From positions 1 to 29,933 of IMG/VR virus record IMGVR_UViG_3300035670_000967: a DNA stretch of 29,933 bases; one strand, 5' to 3'. A program made the position numbers and the translations under genes. This document shows positions 10,516-28,717 of the stretch, piece after piece (the stretch's first letter is position 1; every line of letters starts with the position of its first letter). A model generated the notes under the pieces. That model was not told the origin of the DNA. It saw nothing but the letters and a program-made list of their open reading frames with translations, and searched no databases. This stretch comes from a virus.

Positions 10516-12096
10516 ATGAGTGGAGAACTTCTACCAAGATATAAACAAGCGGTTGTTGAAGATTTAATTCAATCAATTGCTGGTAACACTTCTATTTACT
10601 ATGCATTTGCTTCAAACCCAACAGCATATGCAGGATTGGCCCCAAACACAGAAGTGACCGACTACGCAACTGCTTATGAAAATGGATGGAATCTACTATT
10701 TGGTAAGAAAATTGCCAACACCGACGTCTCTGCTATCATCAAACGTTATGATTGGCAAACGAACACAGTATACTTGGCCTACGACGATCAACAGTCATTT
10801 GCTAACACTGGAAACAGTTCATTTTACGTTTCTGTTCCCCCATCAGCTCCTGGCGGTTATTACCACATTTACAAGTGTGTTGATAATGCAAATGGGACCA
10901 TTTCAACTCAAGTTCCTGATTTAAGAGAGACTTATTCTTTTACTCTGTCTGATGGATATACATGGAGATATATTTACTCAGTGTCAAGTTCAAATTTTGC
11001 AAAGTTTGCAACTGATGATTATCTACCTGTTTATCCAAACAACTCTTTAACTGCAGCAGCATATAATCACTCAGGAATAGACAAAGTTGTAATTAGCAAC
11101 ACTGGTTCGGATTACAGAACTTACCATGACGGGACGGTTCTCAGTGCTGTTAATACAACGTTAATACAAATTTCAAATACAGCAAGTGGAGACAATGATT
11201 TTTACACCAATAGCGCGATATACCTGTATAACAACGGCTCTGCGACAGCTCAGTTGAGAAAGATTACTAGTTATGTTTCCAACTCTAGTGGCAAGTGGTG
11301 TTACGTTGACGGAGAAATCAACCAAGATTATATCATTGAAGAAACTACTCAATACAAAATTTCCCCGGCAGTTGATTTTGATACAGATGGCAACGAATCG
11401 CCACTGGCATATTGTGTCGTAAATTCTATATCAAATACCATTGCTAATGTTGTATTAATAGAATCTGGATATGGAATAACTAGAGCAAGTGCAACTATAT
11501 CAGCAAATGGTGCTTATGGTAATGGAGCAACGTTAAGATGTGTAGTTGCCCCTCCAGGAGGACACGGCAGTAATCCTGCTTCTGAATTACAAGCAGTTGG
11601 AATGTGCATTACATCTTCTTTCGTTGAAACAGAAAGTAACACGATCGTAACCAAAATTGGCAACTCTTCTGTTACTGCAAACTTATCATTCAACAAAATT
11701 GGAATCATAAAGGATCCATATGAACTTTATGGTGTAGGTGAAAAGGGAACTATTCAATTCAGCAGTAACACGTTTGACCAAATATTCAAAGCTGATTTGA
11801 ATCCTGATCTCGTTACTCCTTTAGATAAGGATAGTTTTGTTGTCGGTGAGACGAGTGGAGCTAAAGGTAAAGTCGTATTTTGTAATACTTCTCAGATTTA
11901 TCTGGTTGGAGATAAGCATTTTGTTAACAATGAGGTAATAGTTGAAGAAGGTGGTACTGTTAATACTTATATAAATATAACACACCGTGGCGATATTTAC
12001 GCTAAAGACTTCCGTCCAATTTATGTTGAGAACGTAAACGACATTGAAAGATCGGACGATCAATCAGAAACATTCAAGATAATCATTAGGGTATAG
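10516..12096 (+). CDS. 8: Baseplate wedge protein gp8
   Basis: A 526-residue homologue of T4 gp8 (334 residues), a dimeric wedge protein that links gp6, gp7 and gp10. Conserved features in order: IYYAFASNPTAYAG at the start; VSAIIKRYDWQTNTVYLAYD at about residues 75-95; the YHIYKCVDNANG strand at about 117; DGYTWRYIYSVSSSNFAKF with DDYLPVYP at about 145-175; and a C-terminal strand PIYVENVNDIERSDDQSETF ending in IIIRV, as in gp8 proteins. It is about 190 residues longer than T4 gp8, mostly in the middle and C-terminal beta region (VLIESGYGITRASATISANG; VGETSGAKGKVVFCNTSQIY). The start follows the previous stop by 3 bases. A homing endonuclease gene begins 49 bases downstream. Confidence 0.85.
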   Translation: MSGELLPRYKQAVVEDLIQSIAGNTSIYYAFASNPTAYAGLAPNTEVTDYATAYENGWNLLFGKKIANTDVSAIIKRYDWQTNTVYLAYDDQQSFANTGNSSFYVSVPPSAPGGYYHIYKCVDNANGTISTQVPDLRETYSFTLSDGYTWRYIYSVSSSNFAKFATDDYLPVYPNNSLTAAAYNHSGIDKVVISNTGSDYRTYHDGTVLSAVNTTLIQISNTASGDNDFYTNSAIYLYNNGSATAQLRKITSYVSNSSGKWCYVDGEINQDYIIEETTQYKISPAVDFDTDGNESPLAYCVVNSISNTIANVVLIESGYGITRASATISANGAYGNGATLRCVVAPPGGHGSNPASELQAVGMCITSSFVETESNTIVTKIGNSSVTANLSFNKIGIIKDPYELYGVGEKGTIQFSSNTFDQIFKADLNPDLVTPLDKDSFVVGETSGAKGKVVFCNTSQIYLVGDKHFVNNEVIVEEGGTVNTYINITHRGDIYAKDFRPIYVENVNDIERSDDQSETFKIIIRV

Positions 12097-12109
12097 GTGG
12101 AATACTTTT

Positions 12110-12117
12110 TATAAATA
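12110..12117 (+). promoter_or_regulatory. T4-type late promoter (TATAAATA)
   Basis: A perfect TATAAATA box followed by GTCT, 14 bases past the gp8 stop and 28 bases before the endonuclease ATG. By the T4 rule the transcript would start about 6 bases after the box, near 12123. Confidence 0.65.
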
Positions 12118-12140
12118 GTCTCTATAAAATAAAGGAGACT
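12117..12140 (+). promoter_or_regulatory. Hairpin able to hide the endonuclease ribosome site
   Basis: Bases 12117-12123 (AGTCTCT) can pair with 12134-12140 (GGAGACT): six Watson-Crick pairs plus one G-U, with a 10-base loop. The 3' arm contains the GGAG Shine-Dalgarno, 8 bases before the ATG at 12146. A transcript starting at the adjacent late promoter (near 12123) would lack the 5' arm. The same arrangement recurs at 24896-24924. Confidence 0.6.
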
Positions 12141-12145
12141 GATAA

Positions 12146-12871
12146 ATGCAAGAAAAATATGGATTTGTATATATTTGGTATGATAGAAAACATAAAAGAT
12201 TTTATATTGGATGTAGATGGGGTTCAGAAGATGATGGTTATATTTGTTCTTCTAAATGGATGAGACAAGGATATAAACGTCGTCCTGAAGATTTTAAAAG
12301 AAGAATATTAGAAAGAGTTTATTCGTCTCGCCAAGATCTTTTAGAACGCGAACATAAGTGGATTTCATTAATTGACGAAAATCAATTAGGAAAAAGATAT
12401 TATAATCTTCGCAAACATCATTTTTCTCATTGGGCTACTGATGAAATAATAAAATTAAAAGTTGTTAATAAGATCAAAAATTCTTGGGACGATGAAAATA
12501 AAGAAAAACTTAGAAAATTAAATACAGGAAAAAAACATTCTGAAGATACTAAACAAAAAATCCGAGAAAAAAATACAGGAAAAAAACATTCTGAAGATAC
12601 TAAACAAAAAATAAGTGAATCAAAAATTGGAATTCCTAGATCTGAACATACCAAACGCAAAATATCTAAAGGAAATAAGGGAAAAAAAAGACCAGATGGA
12701 TATAGAACGGGAACATCGCATCCTATGTTTGGAAAGAGATTTTCAGAACAAGCCAGATTAAATATGAAAGTTCCTAGAAAAAGAAAGATAGTTAAATGCC
12801 CTCATTGTGAAAAGGTTGGAAATCAGAGTCCAATGAGCAGATATCATTTTGAAAATTGCAAGCATAAATAA
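12146..12871 (+). CDS. GIY-YIG homing endonuclease with NUMOD3 repeats
   Basis: A 241-residue site-specific endonuclease of the kind that copies itself between related phages. The GIY-YIG domain is residues 1-95: FVYIWYDRKHKRFYIGCRWG carries the two strands in variant form, and ERVYSSRQDLLEREHKWISL carries the conserved region with the Glu after Arg-Glu. Residues about 120-185 are NUMOD3-type DNA-binding repeats (NTGKKHSEDTKQKI twice, then IPRSEHTKRKI). The C-terminus has CPHCEKVG...RYHFENCKH, a plausible zinc finger. It is free-standing between gp8 and the next structural gene, AT-richer than its neighbours, and clearly related to the gene at 24931 (both start MQEKYGFVYIWYD). It has its own late promoter and a possible ribosome-site hairpin. 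Confidence 0.9.
   Translation: MQEKYGFVYIWYDRKHKRFYIGCRWGSEDDGYICSSKWMRQGYKRRPEDFKRRILERVYSSRQDLLEREHKWISLIDENQLGKRYYNLRKHHFSHWATDEIIKLKVVNKIKNSWDDENKEKLRKLNTGKKHSEDTKQKIREKNTGKKHSEDTKQKISESKIGIPRSEHTKRKISKGNKGKKRPDGYRTGTSHPMFGKRFSEQARLNMKVPRKRKIVKCPHCEKVGNQSPMSRYHFENCKHK
12520..12612 (+). repeat. Perfect 42-bp direct repeat, 51-bp period, within the endonuclease gene
   Basis: Bases 12520-12561 are repeated exactly at 12571-12612. The 51-base offset keeps the frame (17 codons) and duplicates one NUMOD3 unit. The lack of any substitution points to a recent duplication. Confidence 0.9.
12863..12870 (+). promoter_or_regulatory. Possible late promoter, variant CATAAATA box
   Basis: CATAAATA overlaps the stop of the first endonuclease gene, 36 bases before the start of the 2166-residue structural gene. 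It has one mismatch to the T4 late box. It could restore late expression of the gene downstream of the inserted endonuclease. Confidence 0.35.
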
Positions 12872-12906
12872 TAGTAATCAAATAATCAACTTTACGGGTA
12901 TAATAA

Positions 12907-15900
12907 ATGGCGACCGAAAAAGACTTTAACGTTCCTCCTTATTTTGATGATTTTGATGCGAACAACCGTTACCATCGAATTCTGTTTCGTCCATCAGTTG
13001 CAGTTCAGGCTCGTGAGCTAACGCAGCTTCAAACGACTTTGCAAGACCAAATTGAAAAATTTGGCAATCATATCTTCAAAGATGGGTCAATCGTTCAAGG
13101 TTGCGGTCTTGTATATTATCCTAATGTTCATTTTATTTCATTAGACGACCGATTCAATACAAACATTGAATTGTTTCCCACTGATCTGACTACCAATACA
13201 GAGTTCCAATACCTAGTAACAAACTCAGAAGATTCTGATGCAGCAACAAGAGCTGTGATCAAAATTGCTAAAACTGGGTCTAAAAATGATCCACCAAACA
13301 CAAATCGAATCTATTTGGATTATATTTCTACAGGCACAGATCCTGATGGAAACGACGTCCCACGATTTAGACCTGGCGATACACTATACATCTACACACA
13401 AGAACAAAATAAGTTTTCTACCTTAGATTCTGCAAACTTGTTTGATTCTATTCAGACATTGGATTCAAATTCAACGTTTTCTTCTGATGGATATGCTTAT
13501 TGTATTGGTGTATCTGAAGGCATTGTGTTCCAAAAAGGGTTCTTTGTTCAGGTAGAACCTCATACAATTACAATTCGTGACTATTCAAATCAAGTTGATG
13601 GTTACGTGGTTGGTTTTGATACAATTGAAGAAATTTATACTGAAAATAACGACAACACATTGAACGACAATGCACTGGGATACGACAACGAAAATGCACC
13701 AGGCGCTCACCGACTAAAACTAATACCAACATTAGTCTCAAAAACAAGAGCTGATGCAGCAAACAATAAAAACTTCTTTGCCCTGGTAGAGTTTGATGGC
13801 AATGAGCCAACGGAACAGCGAGATGGTGCTCAATACAATGAATTGAATAAACAATTTGCTTTGCGTACTTACGAAGAGTCTGGTGATTATTTCGTTTATC
13901 CATTTATTGTTGACACATTACCATATGCAGCAAATTCCCAATACTTAACATATCAAATCTCCCCAGGAATTGCTTATGTTAGAGGTTCAAGAGTTGAAAA
14001 GATTGGAACCACTAGCGTTGTTGCTCCAAGAGCAATAGATACAAACTTTGTCCAAAACCAAACTCTGACAGCAAATTATGGCAACTATGTGATTTGTAAT
14101 GAATTTCTTGGAGCTGCTGATTTAGAAAACATGACAGAAGTTTCTCTTTATGACACTGCTCAAAGATCAATTTCTGAATATGAATCAGTTTCAGCATCGC
14201 CGTCAGGATCTGTAATGGGTAAAGCAAACGTTCGTGCTGTAGTTTTTGAACAGGGCACGAAAGGCACTACTACGGCAAAGTACTTAGTATACTTATTCAA
14301 CATTCGAATGAATGCTGGATATTCGTTCTCTCAAGTAAAAAGTTTATATGGAACATCGGGTACAGCTGGTAACTTTAAATGCGATGTTGTTTTAGAAAAT
14401 GGCGTATGTGTTCTTAAAGAATCGTCAAAGAATAACTTATTGTTGAACACTGGCTTATTGTCCGTAAAGTCACTAACCAATAACACTGGGATTGGCGATA
14501 CGTATTACGTATATAACCAAATCAAAACAGCAACTCTGGCGGTTGATGGTACAGTTTCTGTATCATTGGATACAGCTGGCCCCGGTACTTCAACAGAAAA
14601 ACTAAATTCAGCTTCGGGAACAACGCTGACAGGAAGTTCTGCTGAACCATATAACATTTACCTATCTCAAAATGCCTATTCATCTAATTTAACAGGTAAC
14701 GTATCATTTTCAACAACTTCCGTAACAGTTTCGGGTACAGGGACATCGTTCCTTACCAGTTATCAAGTTGGTTCTTTGATTTATTTGTATGCGAATACAA
14801 CAACGGCATTCGTTCGTCGCGTCGAATCAATTGCCAACAATGAGTCGTTAACCGTAGATGCGCTACCTGCTTATTCCAATACTGATACAACACATGCTCG
14901 ATACTTTGTCGGTGGTTCTGTACTACCATTAACTGCAGTTAATATTAATTCTAACACAGCATTTACTGCAAATACTGATTTAACAATAGCATCTGGTACT
15001 CAAAGCGTTTACTGTTCGTATCCTGTCAACAGAAACCTTGCACTTTCTATACCCAAAGTTATCAACAAATCAGTGTATGTTAAAATCTCATGTGCTTCCG
15101 ATCAAACTGGTCCATGGAATCTCGGACTATGTGATGTTCACAAGATCAGACACGTCTACGTTGGAACAGGCACATATTCGACAACTAACGCAGATCGCTT
15201 GTCATGGTTCACTTTTGACGATGGCCAGAAAGACGATATGTATGATCATGCAAAGTTGGTTGTTAAACCAGAATACAAGTCTAAGATAACATCATCAACA
15301 ACAATTCTTGTTGAATTGGATGCTTTCACTGCTAACACAACAGCGTCAGTTGGATTCTTCAGTGTTGAATCCTATCCAATCGATGACAACAATACTTCAA
15401 ATACAAATGCAATTCAAACAATTGAATTGCCAAAGTACAAAGGAAACGAACTAAGAAACTTCATTGATTTCCGTCCAAGGAAATATAACACAGCCAACGT
15501 TCAAGCAACGTCGATTGGTGATGCCACACTTAATCCTGCAACAAACACTATGTTTGATGTGTCTGTTTCTCCATCTGGTCAATATACAATTATTCCAGAT
15601 TCAAACTTTGTGGCAGATTTTGAATATTACATGCCAAGAATCGATTTAATTACGATCGATCCTTTTGGTACATTCAATGTGATTAGAGGAGTGCCTTCAA
15701 ATACTCCAAAAACACCATCATCTGAAAACGATCAATCGATTGTATGTGAAGTGTTTATACCAGCGTATCCATCCGCTTCAAAGAGAGAAGCCGATCAGTA
15801 TACTGGAGTACAACCAGTCAAGGTATTGCCAAAACAAAATCGTCGTTATACAATGAAAGACATTGGTGCGTTGGATGAACGGATCAAACGCGTTGAATAT

Positions 15901-18900
15901 TACACTGTGCTGAATACAATTGAGCAACAAGCGAGAGATCTGACAATTCCAGACGCATCTGGATTGAACAGATTTAAAAACGGTATCTTCGCAGATCCAT
16001 TTAATTCTCACAACATTGGTAACGTTGCTGATTTTGAATACAAAATTGCGATCGATCCAAAAGAAACTGTTGCTCGTCCATACTTTGATAAACACGACGT
16101 CGACTTCCAATACACTGGGGCTTTGTCGTCTAATACTCAAGTTACCGGACCAATCGTGACATTGCCATATACCCATGTCAACAGCCAATCTCAAAGATTT
16201 GCTACAAAATATAGAAACACAACACAATCTCTTTGGAAGTGGAATGGATTCATCGATCTTTATCCTTCCAGTGATTTTTACCGCGATGAGGAACCCCCAG
16301 CAAACATTTCATTGTCGTTGGACATTGCTGCTCCTTGGGAGCAGTTTGTCAATTCTCCTTTTGGTTCTTTATATGGTGATTGGCGAACGGTTTCTGTAGT
16401 TACAAACACATCCGTTTCTTCATCAACATCTGGCTTTATAACCACAACAAATACAACACGAACAACAACTGAAACGCAAAATCAAATTGTTACAAATCTG
16501 GGTGTTAATACATTTACTGAACAATTAGATTTTGGAACAACAGTCAAAGACATTTCTATTCAGCCTTACATGAGATCCAGACTGGTCTCATTTGTTGCTC
16601 GAAACATGAAACCAAATACAACTCTACATGCATTTTTTGACGATGTATCAATAGATCAATATTGCGCACCTGGCGTGTTATCAGGAGTAACTTCTGTTGC
16701 TGAAGGATTTGAAGATAGATTCGTCACACAAAACGGCAACTTTGGAGATCCACTAGTATCAGATGCAAATGGGTTTATTTGTGGGGTGTTTAGAATACCT
16801 GCAGAAACATTCCGTACTGGCGATCGTGTATTCTTATTAACAGACGTCGATTCGTTAGAACTTGGCGCTGATGCATTTATGACGACTGGTAGAGCAAGGT
16901 ATACTGCTGATGCAGTATCAGTAACCAAACAATCTACTACACTAAACGTAAGACAGCCAATTCTATTCAGAAATAGCATTACAAATACTAGAAGTTCTGT
17001 CACTTCAAATACCAGAACTGTTATAATTGATAACACACCAAACCCAGAACCATGGGGAGGTGGTGGCGATGGTGATAGTGGCGGCGGTTGTTTCGTTAAA
17101 GGTTCTATGGTGCTAATGGCAAATGGGGAATCTATTGCGATTGAACAGGTGAAAGTTGGCGATCGTTTGGTTGGAAAGGACAGAATTAATACAGTATTAG
17201 AAGTGTCAACACCTTCGCTTCGCTCAGCATATCCTGATGGGGGATTGTTCGCAATCAATGATGGAAAAGCATTCGTCACGGCAGAACATCCATTTTTAAC
17301 ACAACAAGGTTGGAAAGCAATCGATCCCTCTGAAACAACCAGATTGAAACCTGGTTTGGCAGAACTAAACATAACAAAGTTGATGATTGGTGATCGAATC
17401 CTATCAGTTGATGGCACAACAGAAGTTCTGTCAATTCAAAAGTATCATTGCGATGATCAAACGCTGTATAATTTCAGATTGGATGGCGATCAATGTTACT
17501 TTGTTAACGGATTGTTAGTTCACAATAAACCAATTGCCCAGTCGTTTGAGGTAATCAATGTGCCTGCAAACGTCTCAGGAATATTCCTAACCAAAGTGGG
17601 TGTTTATTTCAAAAAGAAAGATTCAACGCTTGGTTGTCAGTTGTTCATTTGTGAAATGGTTAATGGTTTCCCTGATTTCAGTCGAGTACTTGGTAAATGT
17701 CACTTGCCTTCTTCCAGCATTTCTGTATCCGACAATGCAACAACAGAAACGGTGTTTACATTGGAGTATCCAATCTTCCTATTGAAAAACAACGATTATG
17801 CAATGGTAATTCAGCCTGATGGATATTCTCCTGAATATCAAATTTGGGTTTCTGAAACAGGAAACGTGGATATTGCTACTGGTGAACAAGTGTACTCTAA
17901 TCCATGGGTTGGTACGTTGTTCTATTCTGGTAATAGAAAGACGTGGACCGATGTCCAGTTGGAAGATATTAAGTTTAAGTTGTATAGAGCAGCGTTTACT
18001 GCTAATAGTGGCTATGCAATCTTTAACAACGAGACTGACGAATATCTAACTGTCGATGGTTTTACGAAAGTGAATACTGCGCTTAGCGTGTCAGTGGGTG
18101 ATGTCGTATATACCGTAAATTCATCAGCTGACACTGCAAATGTTCAAAGCATTGTTTCCAATACACTTTCAACTATGGTATATGGACGTGTTCAATATGT
18201 CAACGAAGCAACTGGCAAAATATGGTTGGATTCTTCAACTGCATCACCAGCCAGTTACTTCTCAAACACAACAAACCCAACAATTGCAATTTATCGGATA
18301 TCCAATCCAACGAATACTAGTTTGTTGTCAACAAATACGTTGATTGCTCATGCAACAATTGAAACCGTTGATAACTTAACTTATCATGCAGTTGTACCAA
18401 AGTTTGGAACGTTGCAACCATCTTCAACAACATTAAATTATGAGTTCAAAGGAACAAGCACATCAAATACATTTGACAGTTTCTATCGATCTGTTGAAAA
18501 TAATAATGAACTTGAATACAATGACGTTGAAAGACATGCCATGTCAAAGTCTAACGAGGTGCTGTCTCTTGACAATACAAAGAGCTCACAGTTCAAAGTA
18601 AACATGCGTAGCTATTCAACGTTTGTTTCACCAGTAATCAATCTATCGGCAAAGTCAATGTTGTTCATTGAAAACCTGATAAACAATGACACTACAAACG
18701 AACATACTAGATATGGTAATGCGTTAACAAAGTATGTTTCAAAGACAATGATTCTAGATGATGGTCAAGAAGCTGAAGATCTAAAAGTGTATCTAACAGC
18801 ATTTCGTCCATCAGAGACAGACATTAAAGTATATGCGAAGTTCTGGAACAATCAAGATCCTGAACCATTTGATGACAAAGTTTGGACCGAGCTTCAATAT

Positions 18901-19407
18901 GATAATGGAGGAGAATTGGTATATTCATCTCCTTCGGACACAAGAGATTACATTGAATATCAATTCTCTGTTCCATCAACGAACTCAGTTGCTCAAGGTG
19001 CATTTGCCAACAGTGGGTCAGATACATTGACCGTACTATCTGGAACAATTTCAATATCAAACAACTCAAATGAAATTACTGGTACAAGTACTTCATTTAC
19101 AACGGAAGTGTCTGTTGGCGATAGAATTCGGATTGTATCAGACGATTACTTTGCAATCCGAACGATTACTTCAATTGCAAATAACACGTCATTGTTTGTG
19201 GACAATGGTGTAACCCAGACCAACTCTGCTTCTCTTGCTTATGTGTTTGATCAAATTGGAAACGAGGGAATCGTTGAGTATAAAAACTCAGCTGACTCTC
19301 GGATGATTGGGTTCAAGCAAGTTGCATTCAAGGTAGTGTTACTATCTTCTAACCCAGTGAAAGTTCCAATGTTGAACGACATTCGAGCAATTTGTCTTCA
19401 GATTTAA
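12907..19407 (+). CDS. Giant DUF4815-type virion structural protein with internal Hint domain
   Basis: A 2166-residue baseplate or tail structural protein. Residues 1-70 carry the family's N-terminal signature (NRYHRILFRPSVAVQARELT, then QLQTTLQDQIEKFGNHIFKD), which I associate with DUF4815 proteins of marine T4-like phages. Long beta-rich regions follow. Two copies of a small module with Thr-Gly-Thr-Ser-Phe and SIANN-Ser-Leu-x-Val occur near residues 591-665 and 2041-2115. A Gly-rich linker at about 1383-1394 leads into a Hint (intein-like) domain, residues 1395-1540, after which PIAQSFEVINVPANVSGIFL resumes the structural fold. It follows gp8, roughly where T4 encodes gp9-gp11, suggesting a role at the baseplate periphery. 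If the Hint domain is active, the mature virion would contain cleaved or rejoined fragments rather than one chain. Confidence 0.75.
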   Translation: MATEKDFNVPPYFDDFDANNRYHRILFRPSVAVQARELTQLQTTLQDQIEKFGNHIFKDGSIVQGCGLVYYPNVHFISLDDRFNTNIELFPTDLTTNTEFQYLVTNSEDSDAATRAVIKIAKTGSKNDPPNTNRIYLDYISTGTDPDGNDVPRFRPGDTLYIYTQEQNKFSTLDSANLFDSIQTLDSNSTFSSDGYAYCIGVSEGIVFQKGFFVQVEPHTITIRDYSNQVDGYVVGFDTIEEIYTENNDNTLNDNALGYDNENAPGAHRLKLIPTLVSKTRADAANNKNFFALVEFDGNEPTEQRDGAQYNELNKQFALRTYEESGDYFVYPFIVDTLPYAANSQYLTYQISPGIAYVRGSRVEKIGTTSVVAPRAIDTNFVQNQTLTANYGNYVICNEFLGAADLENMTEVSLYDTAQRSISEYESVSASPSGSVMGKANVRAVVFEQGTKGTTTAKYLVYLFNIRMNAGYSFSQVKSLYGTSGTAGNFKCDVVLENGVCVLKESSKNNLLLNTGLLSVKSLTNNTGIGDTYYVYNQIKTATLAVDGTVSVSLDTAGPGTSTEKLNSASGTTLTGSSAEPYNIYLSQNAYSSNLTGNVSFSTTSVTVSGTGTSFLTSYQVGSLIYLYANTTTAFVRRVESIANNESLTVDALPAYSNTDTTHARYFVGGSVLPLTAVNINSNTAFTANTDLTIASGTQSVYCSYPVNRNLALSIPKVINKSVYVKISCASDQTGPWNLGLCDVHKIRHVYVGTGTYSTTNADRLSWFTFDDGQKDDMYDHAKLVVKPEYKSKITSSTTILVELDAFTANTTASVGFFSVESYPIDDNNTSNTNAIQTIELPKYKGNELRNFIDFRPRKYNTANVQATSIGDATLNPATNTMFDVSVSPSGQYTIIPDSNFVADFEYYMPRIDLITIDPFGTFNVIRGVPSNTPKTPSSENDQSIVCEVFIPAYPSASKREADQYTGVQPVKVLPKQNRRYTMKDIGALDERIKRVEYYTVLNTIEQQARDLTIPDASGLNRFKNGIFADPFNSHNIGNVADFEYKIAIDPKETVARPYFDKHDVDFQYTGALSSNTQVTGPIVTLPYTHVNSQSQRFATKYRNTTQSLWKWNGFIDLYPSSDFYRDEEPPANISLSLDIAAPWEQFVNSPFGSLYGDWRTVSVVTNTSVSSSTSGFITTTNTTRTTTETQNQIVTNLGVNTFTEQLDFGTTVKDISIQPYMRSRLVSFVARNMKPNTTLHAFFDDVSIDQYCAPGVLSGVTSVAEGFEDRFVTQNGNFGDPLVSDANGFICGVFRIPAETFRTGDRVFLLTDVDSLELGADAFMTTGRARYTADAVSVTKQSTTLNVRQPILFRNSITNTRSSVTSNTRTVIIDNTPNPEPWGGGGDGDSGGGCFVKGSMVLMANGESIAIEQVKVGDRLVGKDRINTVLEVSTPSLRSAYPDGGLFAINDGKAFVTAEHPFLTQQGWKAIDPSETTRLKPGLAELNITKLMIGDRILSVDGTTEVLSIQKYHCDDQTLYNFRLDGDQCYFVNGLLVHNKPIAQSFEVINVPANVSGIFLTKVGVYFKKKDSTLGCQLFICEMVNGFPDFSRVLGKCHLPSSSISVSDNATTETVFTLEYPIFLLKNNDYAMVIQPDGYSPEYQIWVSETGNVDIATGEQVYSNPWVGTLFYSGNRKTWTDVQLEDIKFKLYRAAFTANSGYAIFNNETDEYLTVDGFTKVNTALSVSVGDVVYTVNSSADTANVQSIVSNTLSTMVYGRVQYVNEATGKIWLDSSTASPASYFSNTTNPTIAIYRISNPTNTSLLSTNTLIAHATIETVDNLTYHAVVPKFGTLQPSSTTLNYEFKGTSTSNTFDSFYRSVENNNELEYNDVERHAMSKSNEVLSLDNTKSSQFKVNMRSYSTFVSPVINLSAKSMLFIENLINNDTTNEHTRYGNALTKYVSKTMILDDGQEAEDLKVYLTAFRPSETDIKVYAKFWNNQDPEPFDDKVWTELQYDNGGELVYSSPSDTRDYIEYQFSVPSTNSVAQGAFANSGSDTLTVLSGTISISNNSNEITGTSTSFTTEVSVGDRIRIVSDDYFAIRTITSIANNTSLFVDNGVTQTNSASLAYVFDQIGNEGIVEYKNSADSRMIGFKQVAFKVVLLSSNPVKVPMLNDIRAICLQI
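17089..17526 (+). other. Hint (mini-intein or bacterial-intein-like) domain within the structural protein
   Basis: Residues 1395-1540 of the host protein (146 residues). Block A begins at Cys1395: CFVKGSMVLMANGESIAIEQ, then VKVGDRLVG. Block B is FVTAEHPFLTQQGW with Thr1458 and His1461 of the T-x-x-H motif. Block F/G is YNFRLDGDQCYFVNGLLVHN, ending in His1539-Asn1540. No homing endonuclease insert is present. The residue after Asn1540 is Lys, not Cys, Ser or Thr, so classical splicing chemistry lacks its second nucleophile; cleavage, as in bacterial-intein-like domains, is more likely. It lies between a Gly/Asp-rich linker (PWGGGGDGDSGGG) and a conserved structural domain. Confidence 0.85.
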
Positions 19408-19617: not shown

Positions 19618-20181
19618 ATGAACAATGATGTGAAATATATTAGAGAAATTATTGTAAATAAATGTATTATTACACCTTCGCATGGAATAATGTTTGGAAA
19701 GTTGCCGGGAGCGAGATATCAACACCAATACTATCTTGCTAACGGTTTATACGATCAAGAATTTTTACATGCTGTAGCTCGAGAATTTTATCGAATAGTT
19801 AGCGATAGAATTGGTCATTTTAATTTTCAAATAACAGGACGGGAATGGTCAGCTTGTCCTTTAATTACTGGATTGCCAATTATTTTGAAACATCTTTATG
19901 GAATTGAACTGAATAGTTTTTTAATAAAACGTAAGAGAAAAACTTACGGTACAAATAATATAATTGAAGGTATTCCAAATCAATTACCAGTATTAATTGT
20001 AGATGATTTATGCAATTCCACTAATAGTTTTTATCATTGTAGTCGTGTATTAAAACATAGTAAAATACCACAGTTAGAATATATTTTTGCAGTAGTAAAC
20101 AAACAATCAGAAGAGGTTGTCACTGATAAGTATTTGAACGATAAAACTGCTTTGTTTATTATTTCAGGAGATCAATTGTGA
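19618..20181 (+). CDS. Phosphoribosyltransferase-fold protein, first of a tandem pair
   Basis: A 187-residue protein with the layout of a type I phosphoribosyltransferase, closest in pattern to orotate phosphoribosyltransferase. Residues 104-111 (KRKRKTYG) match the basic loop region. Residues 124-137 (PVLIVDDLCNSTNS) occupy the position of the PRPP-binding motif; the Asp129-Asp130 pair is kept, but the following Thr/Ser-Gly-Gly/Lys-Ser loop has become NSTNS. The loop change suggests weak or lost PRPP binding. The gene overlaps the second pair member (GTG start at 20178 across its TGA). The same 11 bases, GAGATCAATTG, precede both starts. It is AT-richer than the flanking structural genes. 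Its substrate is unknown; nucleotide salvage or a regulatory or pseudoenzyme partner role are possible. Confidence 0.7.
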   Translation: MNNDVKYIREIIVNKCIITPSHGIMFGKLPGARYQHQYYLANGLYDQEFLHAVAREFYRIVSDRIGHFNFQITGREWSACPLITGLPIILKHLYGIELNSFLIKRKRKTYGTNNIIEGIPNQLPVLIVDDLCNSTNSFYHCSRVLKHSKIPQLEYIFAVVNKQSEEVVTDKYLNDKTALFIISGDQL

Positions 20182-20885
20182 TACCAAAACTTAATGATGA
20201 TTTGAAAGATGATATGATTAAACAGTTACATCAACACATCGATGACAATTGTTTATTCAGATGCAATCCAAGTGTGCATTATAGTGAATGCTGTGAGGCT
20301 GGTAGATTGCCAACAACATATGAAGCTGAAATGTCGTTTCAATTTTTTCTTCGAAGATTGACACATGATGCTAAGATGATGACTTATGTTAGCGCATTAT
20401 TCATACACGATCTATTTGAAAAGATTGAAACTGGGTTTGAACATCCACATATTCAATTGTGTGGATTGGAAAGTTCTTCTATTCCAATAATGATTGCGAT
20501 GCAGGCGTATGCAGCGAGGTTTAATATTAATATTAATTCATTTTCTATTCGTAAAGAAAGAAAGTCGTATGGATTGTTTAATTTAATTGATGGTAAACCA
20601 ACAGATGCTCCAGTAGTAATCGTTGATGATATTATTAATTCAGGAAAATCTATTGGCAGTTGCATTGATGTTTGTTTATATGAATTGAATATAAAACCAG
20701 CAAAGAATTGTTATTCAATAGTCAAATTCAATCAATTGATGGAATCAATTGAGTATAAACAACATAAAGTTGATCTAACAAGTATATTTGTAGTGGACGA
20801 CTTCAATGTTAATTATAGTAAAGAAAAATACTGGTTGCCAAAAGATTGCGATAAAATAGATAATAAAAGACCAGATTATTTTTAA
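20178..20885 (+). CDS. Phosphoribosyltransferase, orotate-type motif, second of a tandem pair
   Basis: A 235-residue type I phosphoribosyltransferase. Residues 146-158 (VVIVDDIINSGKS) fit the 13-residue PRPP motif well: four hydrophobic residues, Asp-Asp, then a Ser-Gly-Lys-Ser loop. Upstream, residues 123-139 (SIRKERKSYGLFNLIDG) match the flexible Arg-Lys-x-x-Lys-x-x-Gly loop and following segment of orotate phosphoribosyltransferases. Such enzymes join a base to PRPP. The N-terminal 40 residues are Cys-rich (CLFRCNPSVHYSECCEAG) and unlike PyrE. The GTG start is set by AGGAG at 20166-20170 and overlaps the previous stop. The first gene is a paralogue with a degenerate loop. Location between tail genes is unexpected for nucleotide metabolism. 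Its substrate cannot be read from sequence. Confidence 0.75.
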   Translation: MIPKLNDDLKDDMIKQLHQHIDDNCLFRCNPSVHYSECCEAGRLPTTYEAEMSFQFFLRRLTHDAKMMTYVSALFIHDLFEKIETGFEHPHIQLCGLESSSIPIMIAMQAYAARFNININSFSIRKERKSYGLFNLIDGKPTDAPVVIVDDIINSGKSIGSCIDVCLYELNIKPAKNCYSIVKFNQLMESIEYKQHKVDLTSIFVVDDFNVNYSKEKYWLPKDCDKIDNKRPDYF

Positions 20886-24873: not shown

Positions 24874-24888
24874 GGACCCAATTTACCA

Positions 24889-24896
24889 TATAAATA
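24889..24896 (+). promoter_or_regulatory. T4-type late promoter (TATAAATA)
   Basis: A perfect TATAAATA followed by GTCT, 15 bases after the fiber stop and 34 bases before the endonuclease ATG. The 12 bases TATAAATAGTCT are identical to those at 12110. Confidence 0.65.
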
Positions 24897-24924
24897 GTCT
24901 TTGAGAGTAACACTAGAGGAGACT
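24896..24924 (+). promoter_or_regulatory. Hairpin able to hide the second endonuclease ribosome site
   Basis: Bases 24896-24902 (AGTCTTT) can pair with 24918-24924 (GGAGACT): five Watson-Crick pairs plus two G-U, with a 15-base loop. The 3' arm is identical to that at 12134 and includes the GGAG ribosome site, 9 bases before the ATG at 24931. The 5' arm differs by one base (T for C), converted to a G-U pair. A late transcript starting near 24902 would lose the 5' arm. Confidence 0.5.
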
Positions 24925-24930
24925 GTTTAT

Positions 24931-25689
24931 ATGCAAGAAAAGTATGGATTCGTATATATTTGGTATGATAAGAAACATAAAAGATATTATGTTGGAAGCC
25001 ACTGGGGAACAGAAAATGATGGATATATTTGTTCTTCAAGGTGGATGAGGAAATCTTATAAAAGAAGACCAAATGATTTCAAACGACGTACTATCAAAAA
25101 AGTTTATGATAGAAAAACTTTGTTGATTGAAGAACATAACTATTTGTCTATGATGAAGGACGATGAATTAGGAAAAAAATATTATAATTTAACAAATCAT
25201 TTAAATGGTCATTGGTCTACTGATGATAATTTATTTTTAACAGTTGGTGAAAAAATATCCAGATCTCACAAAAGTAATCCAAACTGGGGATCGTGGTCAA
25301 TTGGAAAAGTGGTTTCAGAAGAAACTAAACAAAAGTTGCGTGAAGCTAATAAAAAGCAGTTTGAAGATGATGAACAAAGGCAAATGAGACGCAAGAAGTC
25401 GTTAGAGTTGTGGAATGATCCAGAGTATAGAAAAACAAATACTGAAAATAAAAAAGGCAAGAAACAGTCTCAGGAAACTATACAGAAAAGAAAAGATTCT
25501 ATAAAGGAAAGAAGAAAAACAACTCCGCCTAAGCAGAGACCACCAAAGTCAGAACAAGAAAAACAAAGAATATCTTTGATGACAAAAGGAACTATTTGGA
25601 TTAATAATGGAATTAAAAATAAGAGAATAAATAAAGATCATGTAATGCCAGATGGTTACTGTTTAGGCAAATTACCATACAGAAAGTGA
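24931..25689 (+). CDS. GIY-YIG homing endonuclease, second copy
   Basis: A 252-residue paralogue of the gene at 12146; both begin MQEKYGFVYIWYD. The ATG at 24931 is chosen over an in-frame TTG at 24901 because it has GGAG 9 bases upstream and matches the paralogue's start. The GIY-YIG domain is residues 1-95 (FVYIWYDKKHKRYYVGSHWG; KTLLIEEHNYLSMMKDDELG). After it come NUMOD3-like segments (VVSEETKQKLREANKKQFED; QSQETIQKRKDS) and a Lys/Arg-rich tail with a final TKGTIWINNGIKNKRI module that is found at the end of some phage endonucleases. It is free-standing between two structural genes. The N-terminal halves are clearly related to the first copy while the C-terminal DNA-binding parts differ, suggesting different target sites. 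Confidence 0.9.
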   Translation: MQEKYGFVYIWYDKKHKRYYVGSHWGTENDGYICSSRWMRKSYKRRPNDFKRRTIKKVYDRKTLLIEEHNYLSMMKDDELGKKYYNLTNHLNGHWSTDDNLFLTVGEKISRSHKSNPNWGSWSIGKVVSEETKQKLREANKKQFEDDEQRQMRRKKSLELWNDPEYRKTNTENKKGKKQSQETIQKRKDSIKERRKTTPPKQRPPKSEQEKQRISLMTKGTIWINNGIKNKRINKDHVMPDGYCLGKLPYRK

Positions 25690-26242: not shown

Positions 26243-28069
26243 ATGGCAGGGACAACGTTTCAATTAAAACGGTCTTCTGTGGCCGGAAAGGTTCCTAATA
26301 CATCAACATTGAGTATTGGTGAGCTTGGAATAAATCTAACAGATCAAAAATTATACTCATCAAATGGAACTGGTGTATTTGAACTTGGTGCAAACTTAAC
26401 CAATCTTACTGTTGGTAGCATAAAGGCAAATGGATCTTATGGCAATTCAGGTCAAGTTCTGACTTCTAATGGTACTGTTGCATATTGGGCCAATGGGGCA
26501 TCCGCTGGTGCAGCTAGAATATATTCTATAACTACCGTTTCAGGCACGCAAAACACATTTACAACTTCCGAGCAATTTGTTTCCGGTACAGTCGATGTTT
26601 ATCTGAATGGCGTTCACCTATCCAATTCTGAATATGCAGAAGTCAATTCTACAGCAATTCAATTAACATCCGATGCAACAAACGGGGCAATTGTAGAAGT
26701 TTCTGGTTGGGTAACGATCAATACTTTAGTTGCTGGGGCAAATACAACTATACAATTTAATGATTCTGGATTTATAAACTCTTCACCAACATTCACTTGG
26801 AATAAGAGTTCAGAAAGGTTAACTGTTGGTAATTCTTCTGTTAATTCCACTGTTAACTCGACTTCTATTTCTATTGGTTCAAACAATTTGACTGTTGGAA
26901 CCTCTGCTTATTTTGTTTCTAATGGTAATGTTGGTATTGGTACAAGTTCTCCTTCCTACCTTTTAAGTATCGAAAATTCATCCACTGATGCTAATTATTA
27001 TGCTGGTCGTTTCTATTCTGTTGCTAACCCAGCTAACACATCAATTACACATATTCGTATTGAAAAAGGAAATGGTTATGGAGGTACTGTTGGAGGCTAT
27101 ATAAATCAAGGTGTTGGCAGTGGTTTAGTATTTTCCACATTAAATGGAGGAACTCTTAGTAATGCAGTTTGGGTAAATAATTCTGGTAATGTTGGTATTG
27201 GTACTAGTTCTCCCTCACAAAAAATAGAAGTTTATGATGGCAATATTCAAACTACAAGTACTGCTGGATCATATGTTCGACTTGTTAGAGGTGATGTTAA
27301 TGGTGCTTTACTCCAATTAAATCGTGGAGGAAGTGCTAATCAAAATGCGTATTTCGGTCAATATCAAGGCAGTTTATACATTAAAAATTTAGATAGCGGT
27401 TCTACTATATTCACTAATACAACTGGTGACACAGAACGAATGAGAATCACTTCTGCTGGCAATATTGGTATTGGTACAAGTTCTCCAGCAACTAAATTTC
27501 ATGTATCTGGTAGTGATAACATAACATCCGTTTTATTTTCAGGAAATACTCGTGCAGTTAGATTTTTTACAGATACCAATGGTACCACCTTAGAAGGTGT
27601 TGACAATACTGGATTTACGACATATCAGCCACTTACTATTGGCGGATCAATAGTTACTTTTACCATTAATGGCTCAGAAAAAATGAGACTCACTTCTGCT
27701 GGTAATGTTGGTATTGGTAACAGTTCTCCATCATATCCACTTGATGTTAATGGAAATATAAACTCATCAAATACAGTATTTGCAGTTCATTTTGATAACG
27801 TGTCAGACATCTCATTGAAAGACAATATATCACCACTAACAAACACAAAAGAAACTATCAATCAATTAAACCCAGTCTCATTTAATTGGAAAAGTTCTGG
27901 TGAAAAGTCATATGGACTAATCGCACAAGATGTTGAACAAATCCTTCCAACAATCGTCCATTCAAAATCTGATGGAACCAAAACAGTCAACTATATAGAA
28001 ATAATAGCATTCTTGATTGCAGCAGTAAAAGACCTACAGCAGCAAATTGATGATATAAAAATGAAATAA
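26243..28069 (+). CDS. Tail fiber with C-terminal S74 self-cleaving chaperone domain
   Basis: A 608-residue fiber protein. Residues 1-50 (FQLKRSSVAGKVPNTSTLSI then GELGINLTDQKLYSSNG) are the same GELA/GELG attachment domain as in the 23386 protein. GNSSVNSTVNSTS occurs at bases 26830-26868. Four GNVGIG(T/N)SSPS units lie at residues 228, 315, 406 and 487. Residues 521-608 are an intramolecular chaperone of the peptidase S74 family, which trims itself off after the fiber trimer folds: Ser521-Asp522-Ile-Ser-Leu-Lys526-Asp-Asn matches the Ser-Asp...Lys active site, and LNPVSFNWKSSGEKSYGLIA, then QDVEQILPTIV and a C-terminal coiled coil follow. Cleavage would occur just before Ser521. The ATG at 26243 has AAGGAGA 9 bases upstream. 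The third endonuclease gene follows. Confidence 0.85.
   Translation: MAGTTFQLKRSSVAGKVPNTSTLSIGELGINLTDQKLYSSNGTGVFELGANLTNLTVGSIKANGSYGNSGQVLTSNGTVAYWANGASAGAARIYSITTVSGTQNTFTTSEQFVSGTVDVYLNGVHLSNSEYAEVNSTAIQLTSDATNGAIVEVSGWVTINTLVAGANTTIQFNDSGFINSSPTFTWNKSSERLTVGNSSVNSTVNSTSISIGSNNLTVGTSAYFVSNGNVGIGTSSPSYLLSIENSSTDANYYAGRFYSVANPANTSITHIRIEKGNGYGGTVGGYINQGVGSGLVFSTLNGGTLSNAVWVNNSGNVGIGTSSPSQKIEVYDGNIQTTSTAGSYVRLVRGDVNGALLQLNRGGSANQNAYFGQYQGSLYIKNLDSGSTIFTNTTGDTERMRITSAGNIGIGTSSPATKFHVSGSDNITSVLFSGNTRAVRFFTDTNGTTLEGVDNTGFTTYQPLTIGGSIVTFTINGSEKMRLTSAGNVGIGNSSPSYPLDVNGNINSSNTVFAVHFDNVSDISLKDNISPLTNTKETINQLNPVSFNWKSSGEKSYGLIAQDVEQILPTIVHSKSDGTKTVNYIEIIAFLIAAVKDLQQQIDDIKMK
26924..27736 (+). repeat. 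Four GNVGIGTSSPS repeats in the S74 fiber
   Basis: Short conserved units begin at 26924, 27185, 27458 and 27701, spaced 261, 273 and 243 bases. Each is preceded by an (S/N)(A/S)GN segment. They mark repeating shaft domains of about 80-90 residues. Confidence 0.8.
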
Positions 28070-28077
28070 TATAAATA
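28070..28077 (+). promoter_or_regulatory. T4-type late promoter (TATAAATA)
   Basis: A perfect TATAAATA directly after the stop of the S74 fiber gene. It is followed by G as at the other three intergenic boxes, and lies upstream of the third endonuclease gene. Confidence 0.6.
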
Positions 28078-28087
28078 GATATGTAAT

Positions 28088-28117
28088 GTGGTTCACGAGA
28101 TTGCAGTCTCCAACCAC
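28088..28117 (+). promoter_or_regulatory. Stem-loop in the leader of the third endonuclease gene
   Basis: GTGGTT (28088-28093) pairs with AACCAC (28112-28117), and inside it GAGA (28097-28100) pairs with TCTC (28107-28110) around a TTGCAG loop. It lies just after the expected late transcription start (near 28083) and 27 bases before the ATG. It has no T tract. Confidence 0.45.
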
Positions 28118-28144
28118 TCTAATACTTACAGGGAGTATCAGCAT

Positions 28145-28717
28145 ATGTCTATTTATAAATCCAATTCATTAGAGTTCTATGTTTATGCATATCTTCGTAA
28201 AGATGGCACACCCTACTATATTGGTAAAGGTAAAGGCAATCGTGCTTTTACACAATATAGAACTAACAAACCACCAAAAGACAAATCTAGAATTGTTATA
28301 TGTGAATCTAATTTAACTGAACTTGGTGCATTTGCATTAGAGAGAAGACTTATAAAATGGCACGGTCGTAAAAATAATGGAACAGGAGTTCTTCATAACA
28401 GAACAGATGGGGGTGAAGGATGTTCTGGAATAATAATTTCAAATGAAACTAGAAAAAAAATGTCTGACAATAGAAAAGGAAAAAAACTTAATAAAATCAC
28501 CGTTGAAAAAATGGTAGAAACTAGAAGACAAAAAGGTTTATATACACATACAGACGAAGCGAAGAAGAAAATGTCCGAAAGTAAAAAGGGCAAACCAGGA
28601 AAACCGCATTCTGAAGAAACCAAAAGAAAAATTTCAGAATGGAATAAAGGAAAAATAGTAAGTAAAGAAACCAGAGAAAAAATATCTTCAATTGTAAAAG
28701 AACGCAAAAAAAAGTAA
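28145..28717 (+). CDS. GIY-YIG homing endonuclease with NUMOD3 repeats, third copy
   Basis: A 190-residue endonuclease. The ATG at 28145 has GGGAG 9 bases upstream; an in-frame GTG at 28088 lacks a ribosome site and lies in a hairpin. GIY-YIG domain: [20 protein letters not shown], then KGNRAFTQY, with the conserved [12 protein letters not shown] region and [10 protein letters not shown] at about residues 65-98. NUMOD3 repeats follow: [57 protein letters not shown]. It belongs to the longer PYYIGKGKG subgroup and is not a close paralogue of the genes at 12146 and 24931. It ends in a basic Lys run. It sits directly between a fiber gene and the small gene at 28780, with perfect late promoter boxes on both sides. 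Confidence 0.9.

Follow-up and report, generated by a model that had tools for sequence, protein, structure and literature searches.

The question raised by this locus is whether the late promoter of a homing endonuclease gene can also serve as the antisense of that gene's own ribosome site and, if so, what such a leader would do. The window, i.e. the whole stretch of DNA analysed, is a 29,933-base virus fragment with T4-type baseplate and tail genes (phrog_261, phrog_219 and phrog_438). An earlier note on this DNA had described a late promoter box followed at once by an arm that pairs over the Shine-Dalgarno sequence (SD) of an endonuclease gene, here termed HEG1. Box, arms and coordinates were recovered exactly as the note had given them:

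12110..12117, plus strand: T4-type late promoter box TATAAATA of HEG1, read from the sequence and conserved among relatives as [ACT]TAAATA.
12117..12123, plus strand: 5' arm AGTCTCT, absent from RNA beginning at about 12123.
12123, plus strand: predicted late transcription start, the 6th base past the box (from T4 geometry and an SD exposure of 0.83).
About 12124-12133, plus strand: hairpin loop (sequence).
12133-12137, plus strand: SD of HEG1, AGGAG (sequence).
12134..12140, plus strand: 3' arm GGAGACT, overlapping the SD (sequence, folding and exposure scan).
12146..12871, plus strand: HEG1, free-standing GIY-YIG/NUMOD3 homing endonuclease gene of 241 aa with its ATG at 12146 (phrog_314, E 3.8e-30; NUMOD3).

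The gene 5' of HEG1 encodes a gp8-like baseplate wedge protein (phrog_438). The assignment to a "non-T4 phage" had to be revised: gp8-like and gp6-like wedge genes, together with gp55 in a relative of 84% identity, place the virus in the T4 superfamily. In the GIY-YIG alignment G6, Y9, Y20, G22, E69 and N87 were invariant; the match of HEG1 to the catalytic domain of I-TevI (1LN0) was weak (E 0.05). Domain content and an intergenic site that is empty in relatives identify HEG1 as a putative free-standing, Seg-like GIY-YIG endonuclease gene. Two adjoining genes with phosphoribosyltransferase-like domains (19618-20885; phrog_32468 and PRTase-CE) were also seen in the tail module.

AGTCTCT, whose first A (12117) is the final base of the box, pairs with GGAGACT over the gene's own SD. 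RNA of positions 12110-12165 folded with -8.1 kcal/mol (z -3.2; 0 of 200 shuffles equally stable), RNA of positions 12123-12165 was unstructured at 0 kcal/mol. Following the earlier note, SD exposure was compared with and without the bases before 12123, giving 0.21 and 0.83, respectively. Scanned by 5' end, the probability of an unpaired SD was 0.21 through 12118, 0.63 at 12122 and 0.83 from 12123 on, so that the jump coincides with the start expected of a T4 late promoter, which we take to be 12123 from the geometry of such promoters. Exposure of the AUG was no higher in the short RNA (0.30 to 0.14). Silencing of read-through RNA and release of late RNA, as the note had proposed, are thus predicted in silico from SD exposure, and by this modelling HEG1 would be a hairpin-gated late gene with its SD paired in read-through RNA and free in RNA from its own promoter. 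TATAAATA occurred 7 times in the window versus 2.65 expected, a count reached by 2 of 100 shuffles. When bases of the 3' region were shuffled, a stem as good as that of HEG1 arose in about 1.7% of cases; taken alone the stem is only modestly unlikely and suggestive, and the strong evidence is comparative.

For comparison, a profile search of IMG/VR yielded at least 573 relatives of the HEG1 family, of which 80 were kept, representing 72 distinct upstream regions. Start codons of the relatives were assigned by rule. Six, i.e. half, of the query-profile members came from a late-box pattern scan, which entails a mild selection bias. In the bias-free set of relatives found by protein only, all 8 distinct full-start loci had the box and 7 the stem, one weak; these loci carry TATAAATA or CTAAATA, followed by ACTCC-type arms and GGAGT. 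Over the whole set, [ACT]TAAATA was present in 61 of 72 upstream regions versus 5.3 expected by shuffling, the canonical box being missing in 11. The mean stem score was 19.5, compared to 13.3 (sd 0.38) with 3' arms swapped between loci and 11.0 after shuffling. Because swapping keeps the consensus, the excess over swapped arms represents covariation. Predicted median SD exposure was 0.01 in long and 0.80 in short RNA. As control, 72 neighbour genes from the same loci, with a late box but outside the family, were analysed. Here, the mean stem score was 9.4, scores of at least 16 were found in 1/72 versus 46/61 family leaders (p 6e-18), and SD exposure was 0.44 (long) and 0.57 (short); nested hairpins are therefore rare before neighbour genes. 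G-U pairs added 3.30 to the family stem score and A-C pairs 0.34 (control genes: 0.76 and 1.08, respectively). A gain from G-U but not from A-C pairs means that selection acts on pairing of the sense-strand RNA. On the protein tree, the pair type changed at least 13-18 times per stem position. Even indels in the arms were mirrored (TAAATA-ACTCC..GGAGTTATT versus TAAATA-CTCC..GGAGTATTT), an extra 5' A being matched by an extra 3' T. Across the relatives arm sequences and register vary widely with pairing retained. The arms, in which the earlier note had suggested looking for compensating changes, do covary; the note's own refuting condition, arms that vary without compensation, thus came out in favour of its model. 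The HEG1 hairpin is real and far from chance.

The stem measure was checked on T4 gene 49, which scored 23. I-TevII, with its box in the loop, was missed, which makes the measure conservative. RNAalifold returned no consensus structure on the MAFFT alignment (A4), where arm registers are shifted, which accounts for this result; in a count of named helices on the same alignment, covariation and paired cells were above every shuffle. No such stem was found at the window's structural genes behind late boxes (9718, 12907, 20928 and 28780). The second of these genes (12907-19407), encoding a large structural protein, contains at about 17010-17500 a Hint (intein-like) domain (Hom_end_hint, E 4e-8); it ends in ..LVHNKP without the usual C/S/T after HN, which makes splicing uncertain. 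Relatives without a good stem were L009, L273, L291, L294, L303 and L327. In the longest stems (L321, L335 and RHph) a tip is still left in RNA from the predicted start, where the SD remains partly paired. The same leader, in the following termed class 1, was also found in Sinorhizobium phages phiM12, phiM7 and phiN3 and in Rhizobium phage RHph_I1_18.

Several of the 11 relatives lacking the canonical box have a variant instead: in L281, L285-L287, L293 and L301, TATACATA or TATATATA replaces TATAAATA, and the stem there likewise covers the SD; these boxes are possible variant late promoters. Nested late-box hairpins were also seen before some virion genes (L026-L145, e.g. L042:4241 and L077:9733, and L105, L164 and L178), among them genes for a tail-fibre-like protein (MAVPTPTEVSPWYLRN), a 55-aa protein (MAKIVEDVVVIKFSK) and a neck-like protein (MAVPNSRDTLIDYCKR). 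Some of these have a T run behind them and may also act as terminators. The pattern scans that found them select for hairpins and so yield no frequency.

A second gene of the HEG1 family is present in the window, with the following features:

24888..24902, plus strand: HEG2 5' arm AUAUAAAUAGUCUUU with the box inside (hairpin of -19.2 kcal/mol).
24889..24896, plus strand: HEG2 late box TATAAATA (sequence).
24918..24932, plus strand: HEG2 3' arm GGAGACUGUUUAUAU, over the SD and the AU of the start codon (folding, exposure scan).
24931..25689, plus strand: HEG2, second GIY-YIG gene of the family (phrog_314, E 1.7e-18; N-terminal domain 63% identical to HEG1).

In HEG2 the box is fused to a 15-bp stem, and the loop has diverged from that of HEG1. 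In all three endonuclease genes of the window, including HEG3 (see below), the late box pairs with the gene's own start region.

Empty sites in relatives delimit the insert:

12089..12095, plus strand: GGGTATA, end of the gp8-like gene (sequence).
12097..12906 (ends approximate), plus strand: inserted cassette of leader and HEG1, flanked by the gp8-like gene and the structural gene that follows (empty sites).
12896..12902, plus strand: second GGGTATA, before the downstream ATG, in the position held by the gp8 end in the empty site.

In L353, a 126-kb contig with a gp8 84% identical, the interval from gp8 stop to next start reads AGGGCATAACTAATGGCGAC, and this junction holds no box, no hairpin and no endonuclease. 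Ten further gp8 relatives are empty as well (11 in all), their junctions likewise without box or hairpin, which indicates that leader and HEG1 form one cassette. The GGGTATA on either side of the insert seemingly leaves both the gp8 end and the displaced gene's leader undamaged. Genes of the family begin a median of 49 bases past the upstream stop, i.e. only the length of the leader. Their upstream genes (n=57) were mostly head and tail genes (15 head-tail adaptor and 10 head closure genes, besides sheath, wedge, tube and major head protein), and downstream neighbours were likewise mainly head and tail genes; in T4 such genes belong to the late class. A late sigma factor of gp55 type is encoded in the 84% relative (G001; phrog_234, E 2e-55), and the gp55 family was found in 4 of 5 contigs tested (G001 and 3 of 4 others carrying such genes). 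The idea that the cassette always supplies a promoter to the displaced gene, raised by a box in the 3' end of HEG1 (12863-12870), was rejected, as such boxes were not enriched (24/69 family versus 109/324 other genes).

Very probably, then, a leader of about 45 bases travels with the endonuclease gene and ties its translation to its own late promoter, the main effect being to uncouple it from operon read-through. When transcription runs on from the structural gene 5' of HEG1, the RNA copy of the box, together with the bases that follow, would pair with the SD and block initiation. A late polymerase of gp55 type would start RNA at about 12123; the 5' arm would then be gone and HEG1 could be translated. 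The gp8 stop (12094-12096) lies about 20 bases 5' of the stem, so that a terminating ribosome should not melt it. Whatever site the gene invades, such a lock would make its expression independent of strong read-through of the operon, and earlier read-through RNA, if any, would be blocked too. Uncoupling is put forward as the main effect because insertion sites lie mostly within late structural operons. The earlier note had proposed that the hairpin limits toxicity to late infection. This appears doubtful: HEG1 and most of its relatives follow late structural genes, mostly for head and tail, and the read-through RNA is therefore probably itself late.

The alternatives differ in what the hairpin would act on. 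A classical T4 timing switch, in which early or middle read-through RNA is silenced and late RNA translated so that the nuclease appears only late, is possible but rather doubtful here. Described cases are I-TevI and genes carried on long early or middle transcripts (PMC2988022, PMC3014915), and the hairpin would act on early RNA too, if such RNA reaches HEG1. However, HEG1 follows a baseplate gene within a structural module, and the relatives have mostly head and tail genes upstream. Accidental pairing of a late promoter with a Shine-Dalgarno sequence would fit the shuffle frequency of the HEG1 stem alone (1.7%), but is contradicted by the swapped-arm, shuffle and neighbour-gene controls and by the tree counts, and its probability is close to nil.

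The inverted repeat might instead work as DNA, either as an autorepression operator or as a cruciform; I-TevI binds an operator that overlaps its own late promoter and represses it (PMC2988022). This is improbable given that pairing persists although the arms differ greatly in sequence and register, and that the preference for G-U over A-C is explained only by pairing of sense-strand RNA; the latter test disfavours a DNA palindrome, although the repeat may serve as an operator in addition to its role in RNA. An intrinsic terminator of the upstream operon is slightly less probable than the DNA reading. A stem followed by a T run does occur in some relatives and in some structural-gene leaders, but HEG1 and HEG2 lack a T run past the stem, five Ts near the start were found in only 6/61 family leaders, and transcription has to continue into the structural gene downstream. 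This reading was rejected on the T-run counts.

An RNA lock opened by late transcription is known from several T4 genes. For I-TevI, gene e, soc and 49 hairpin gating is established, and I-TevII, I-TevIII, segB and Aeh1 mobE are listed as further cases (PMC2988022, PMC3014915); deletion of the I-TevI hairpin had no reported viability cost (PMC2988022). Like HEG1, I-TevI, I-TevII and I-TevIII have an adjoining late promoter, an SD hidden in the longer RNA and a late RNA without the 5' part (PMC2988022, PMC3014915). They are, however, intron-encoded and lie in early or middle units, whereas genes of the HEG1 family are free-standing in late structural operons; and in I-TevII the box is in the hairpin loop, whereas the end of the HEG1 box is part of the 5' arm. 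The earlier note had pointed to this T4 logic on a free-standing GIY-YIG gene; on such a gene it is not new, T4 segB being one with a late promoter and an SD-hiding RNA structure (PMC2988022; "implicated" in PMC3014915). Its arrangement is that of HEG1, but it is a single case, inserted in a tRNA gene region. Aeromonas phage Aeh1 mobE is also a free-standing homing endonuclease gene with its ribosome-binding site sequestered by a hairpin, but belongs to the HNH family and is inserted in nrdA. T4 e, soc and 49 are late genes whose initiation region is hidden in longer transcripts, and gene 49 (TAAATACCCTTAT..GTAAGGGTTTA) has the same geometry as HEG1; these are phage genes, whereas HEG1 is a mobile endonuclease gene. 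The literature searched yielded reports of such leaders from T4/Aeh1-type phages but from no others. In its predicted action HEG1 itself is like the known hairpin-gated genes; what is new is the late-operon setting, the portable family-wide leader and a second leader class.

This second class was recognised at the third endonuclease gene of the window, HEG3, directly 5' of which (26243-28069) a tail-fibre-like protein with a terminal Peptidase_S74 intramolecular chaperone is encoded:

28070..28084, plus strand: HEG3 late box and 5' arm of helix P1 (class-2 alignment, covariance model).
28088..28117, plus strand: conserved HEG3 P2 hairpin GUGGUU-CAC-GAGA..UCUC-C-AACCAC (class-2 alignment).
28122..28138, plus strand: HEG3 P3 hairpin AUACU/AGUAU, with the SD in its loop and 3' strand (class-2 alignment).
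28142..28157, plus strand: HEG3 P1 3' arm CATATGTCTATTTATA, i.e. start codon and codons 2-5; contains TATTTATA, the minus-strand match to TATAAATA.
28145..28717, plus strand: HEG3, GIY-YIG/NUMOD3 gene of another subfamily with its ATG at 28145 (phrog_15526, E 8.3e-22; phrog_314, E 1.3e-14).

The whole leader spans 28070-28157, with the late box 75 bases 5' of the ATG. In long RNA the AUG had a predicted exposure of 0.02, which rose to 0.61 for 5' ends beyond 28076. In the short RNA P3 persists with an SD exposure of 0.21; release is thus incomplete in silico because P3 keeps the SD partly paired. The P2 pattern was found in 21 more stretches, almost all of which combine late box, P2 and P3 with an ATG NNN ATT TAT start. 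The consensus of the P2 hairpin, which has a conserved C(A/G)C internal loop, is GUAGGUCRCGGAnnGCAnUCCCACCUAC. Class-2 loci comprise window positions 28070-28157 and L374, L375, L379, L294, L320, L402-L422, L122 and L427. The covariance model found members beyond its training set: two in L122, a second in L418, L412, weakly L021, and one in a sister phage (L427). In the alignment of 19 sequences, 86.5% of cells pair compared to 76.7% after shuffling and no more than 46% after sliding; double changes number 42 versus 16, and covariation is 0.245 versus 0.104 (0/500 shuffles). The leader had no match in Rfam, and blastn against named phages found nothing; class 2 is a candidate new RNA family.

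Class-2 leaders precede GIY-YIG, HNH (PF01844) and KilA-N (PF04383) genes, so that the RNA may travel regardless of which protein family it serves. For the MxIY start that otherwise unrelated endonucleases share, a constraint from the RNA is the best reading. On balance, it seems likely that at least two transferable leaders in which the promoter acts as antisense follow mobile endonuclease genes in T4-like viruses. In class 2, the box would pair with codons 2-5 (ATG NNN ATT TAT A, forcing the MxIY N-terminus), close a junction with P2 and P3, move independently of the protein family, and might be sensed by a protein or the ribosome.

The control scheme of a few T4 and Aeh1 genes hence becomes a family-wide, testable rule. 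In the environmental T4-like viruses sampled, free-standing endonucleases have their promoter and presumed translation lock combined in a single short element that is portable, and in class 2 the promoter sequence, the RNA structure and the first codons each limit how the others can vary. A direct test is possible in the Sinorhizobium phages phiM12 and phiN3, which are culturable and lysogeny-free and whose free-standing genes have the class-1 leader. The leader suggests a way in which a selfish gene may enter a strongly expressed structural operon and yet escape its expression.
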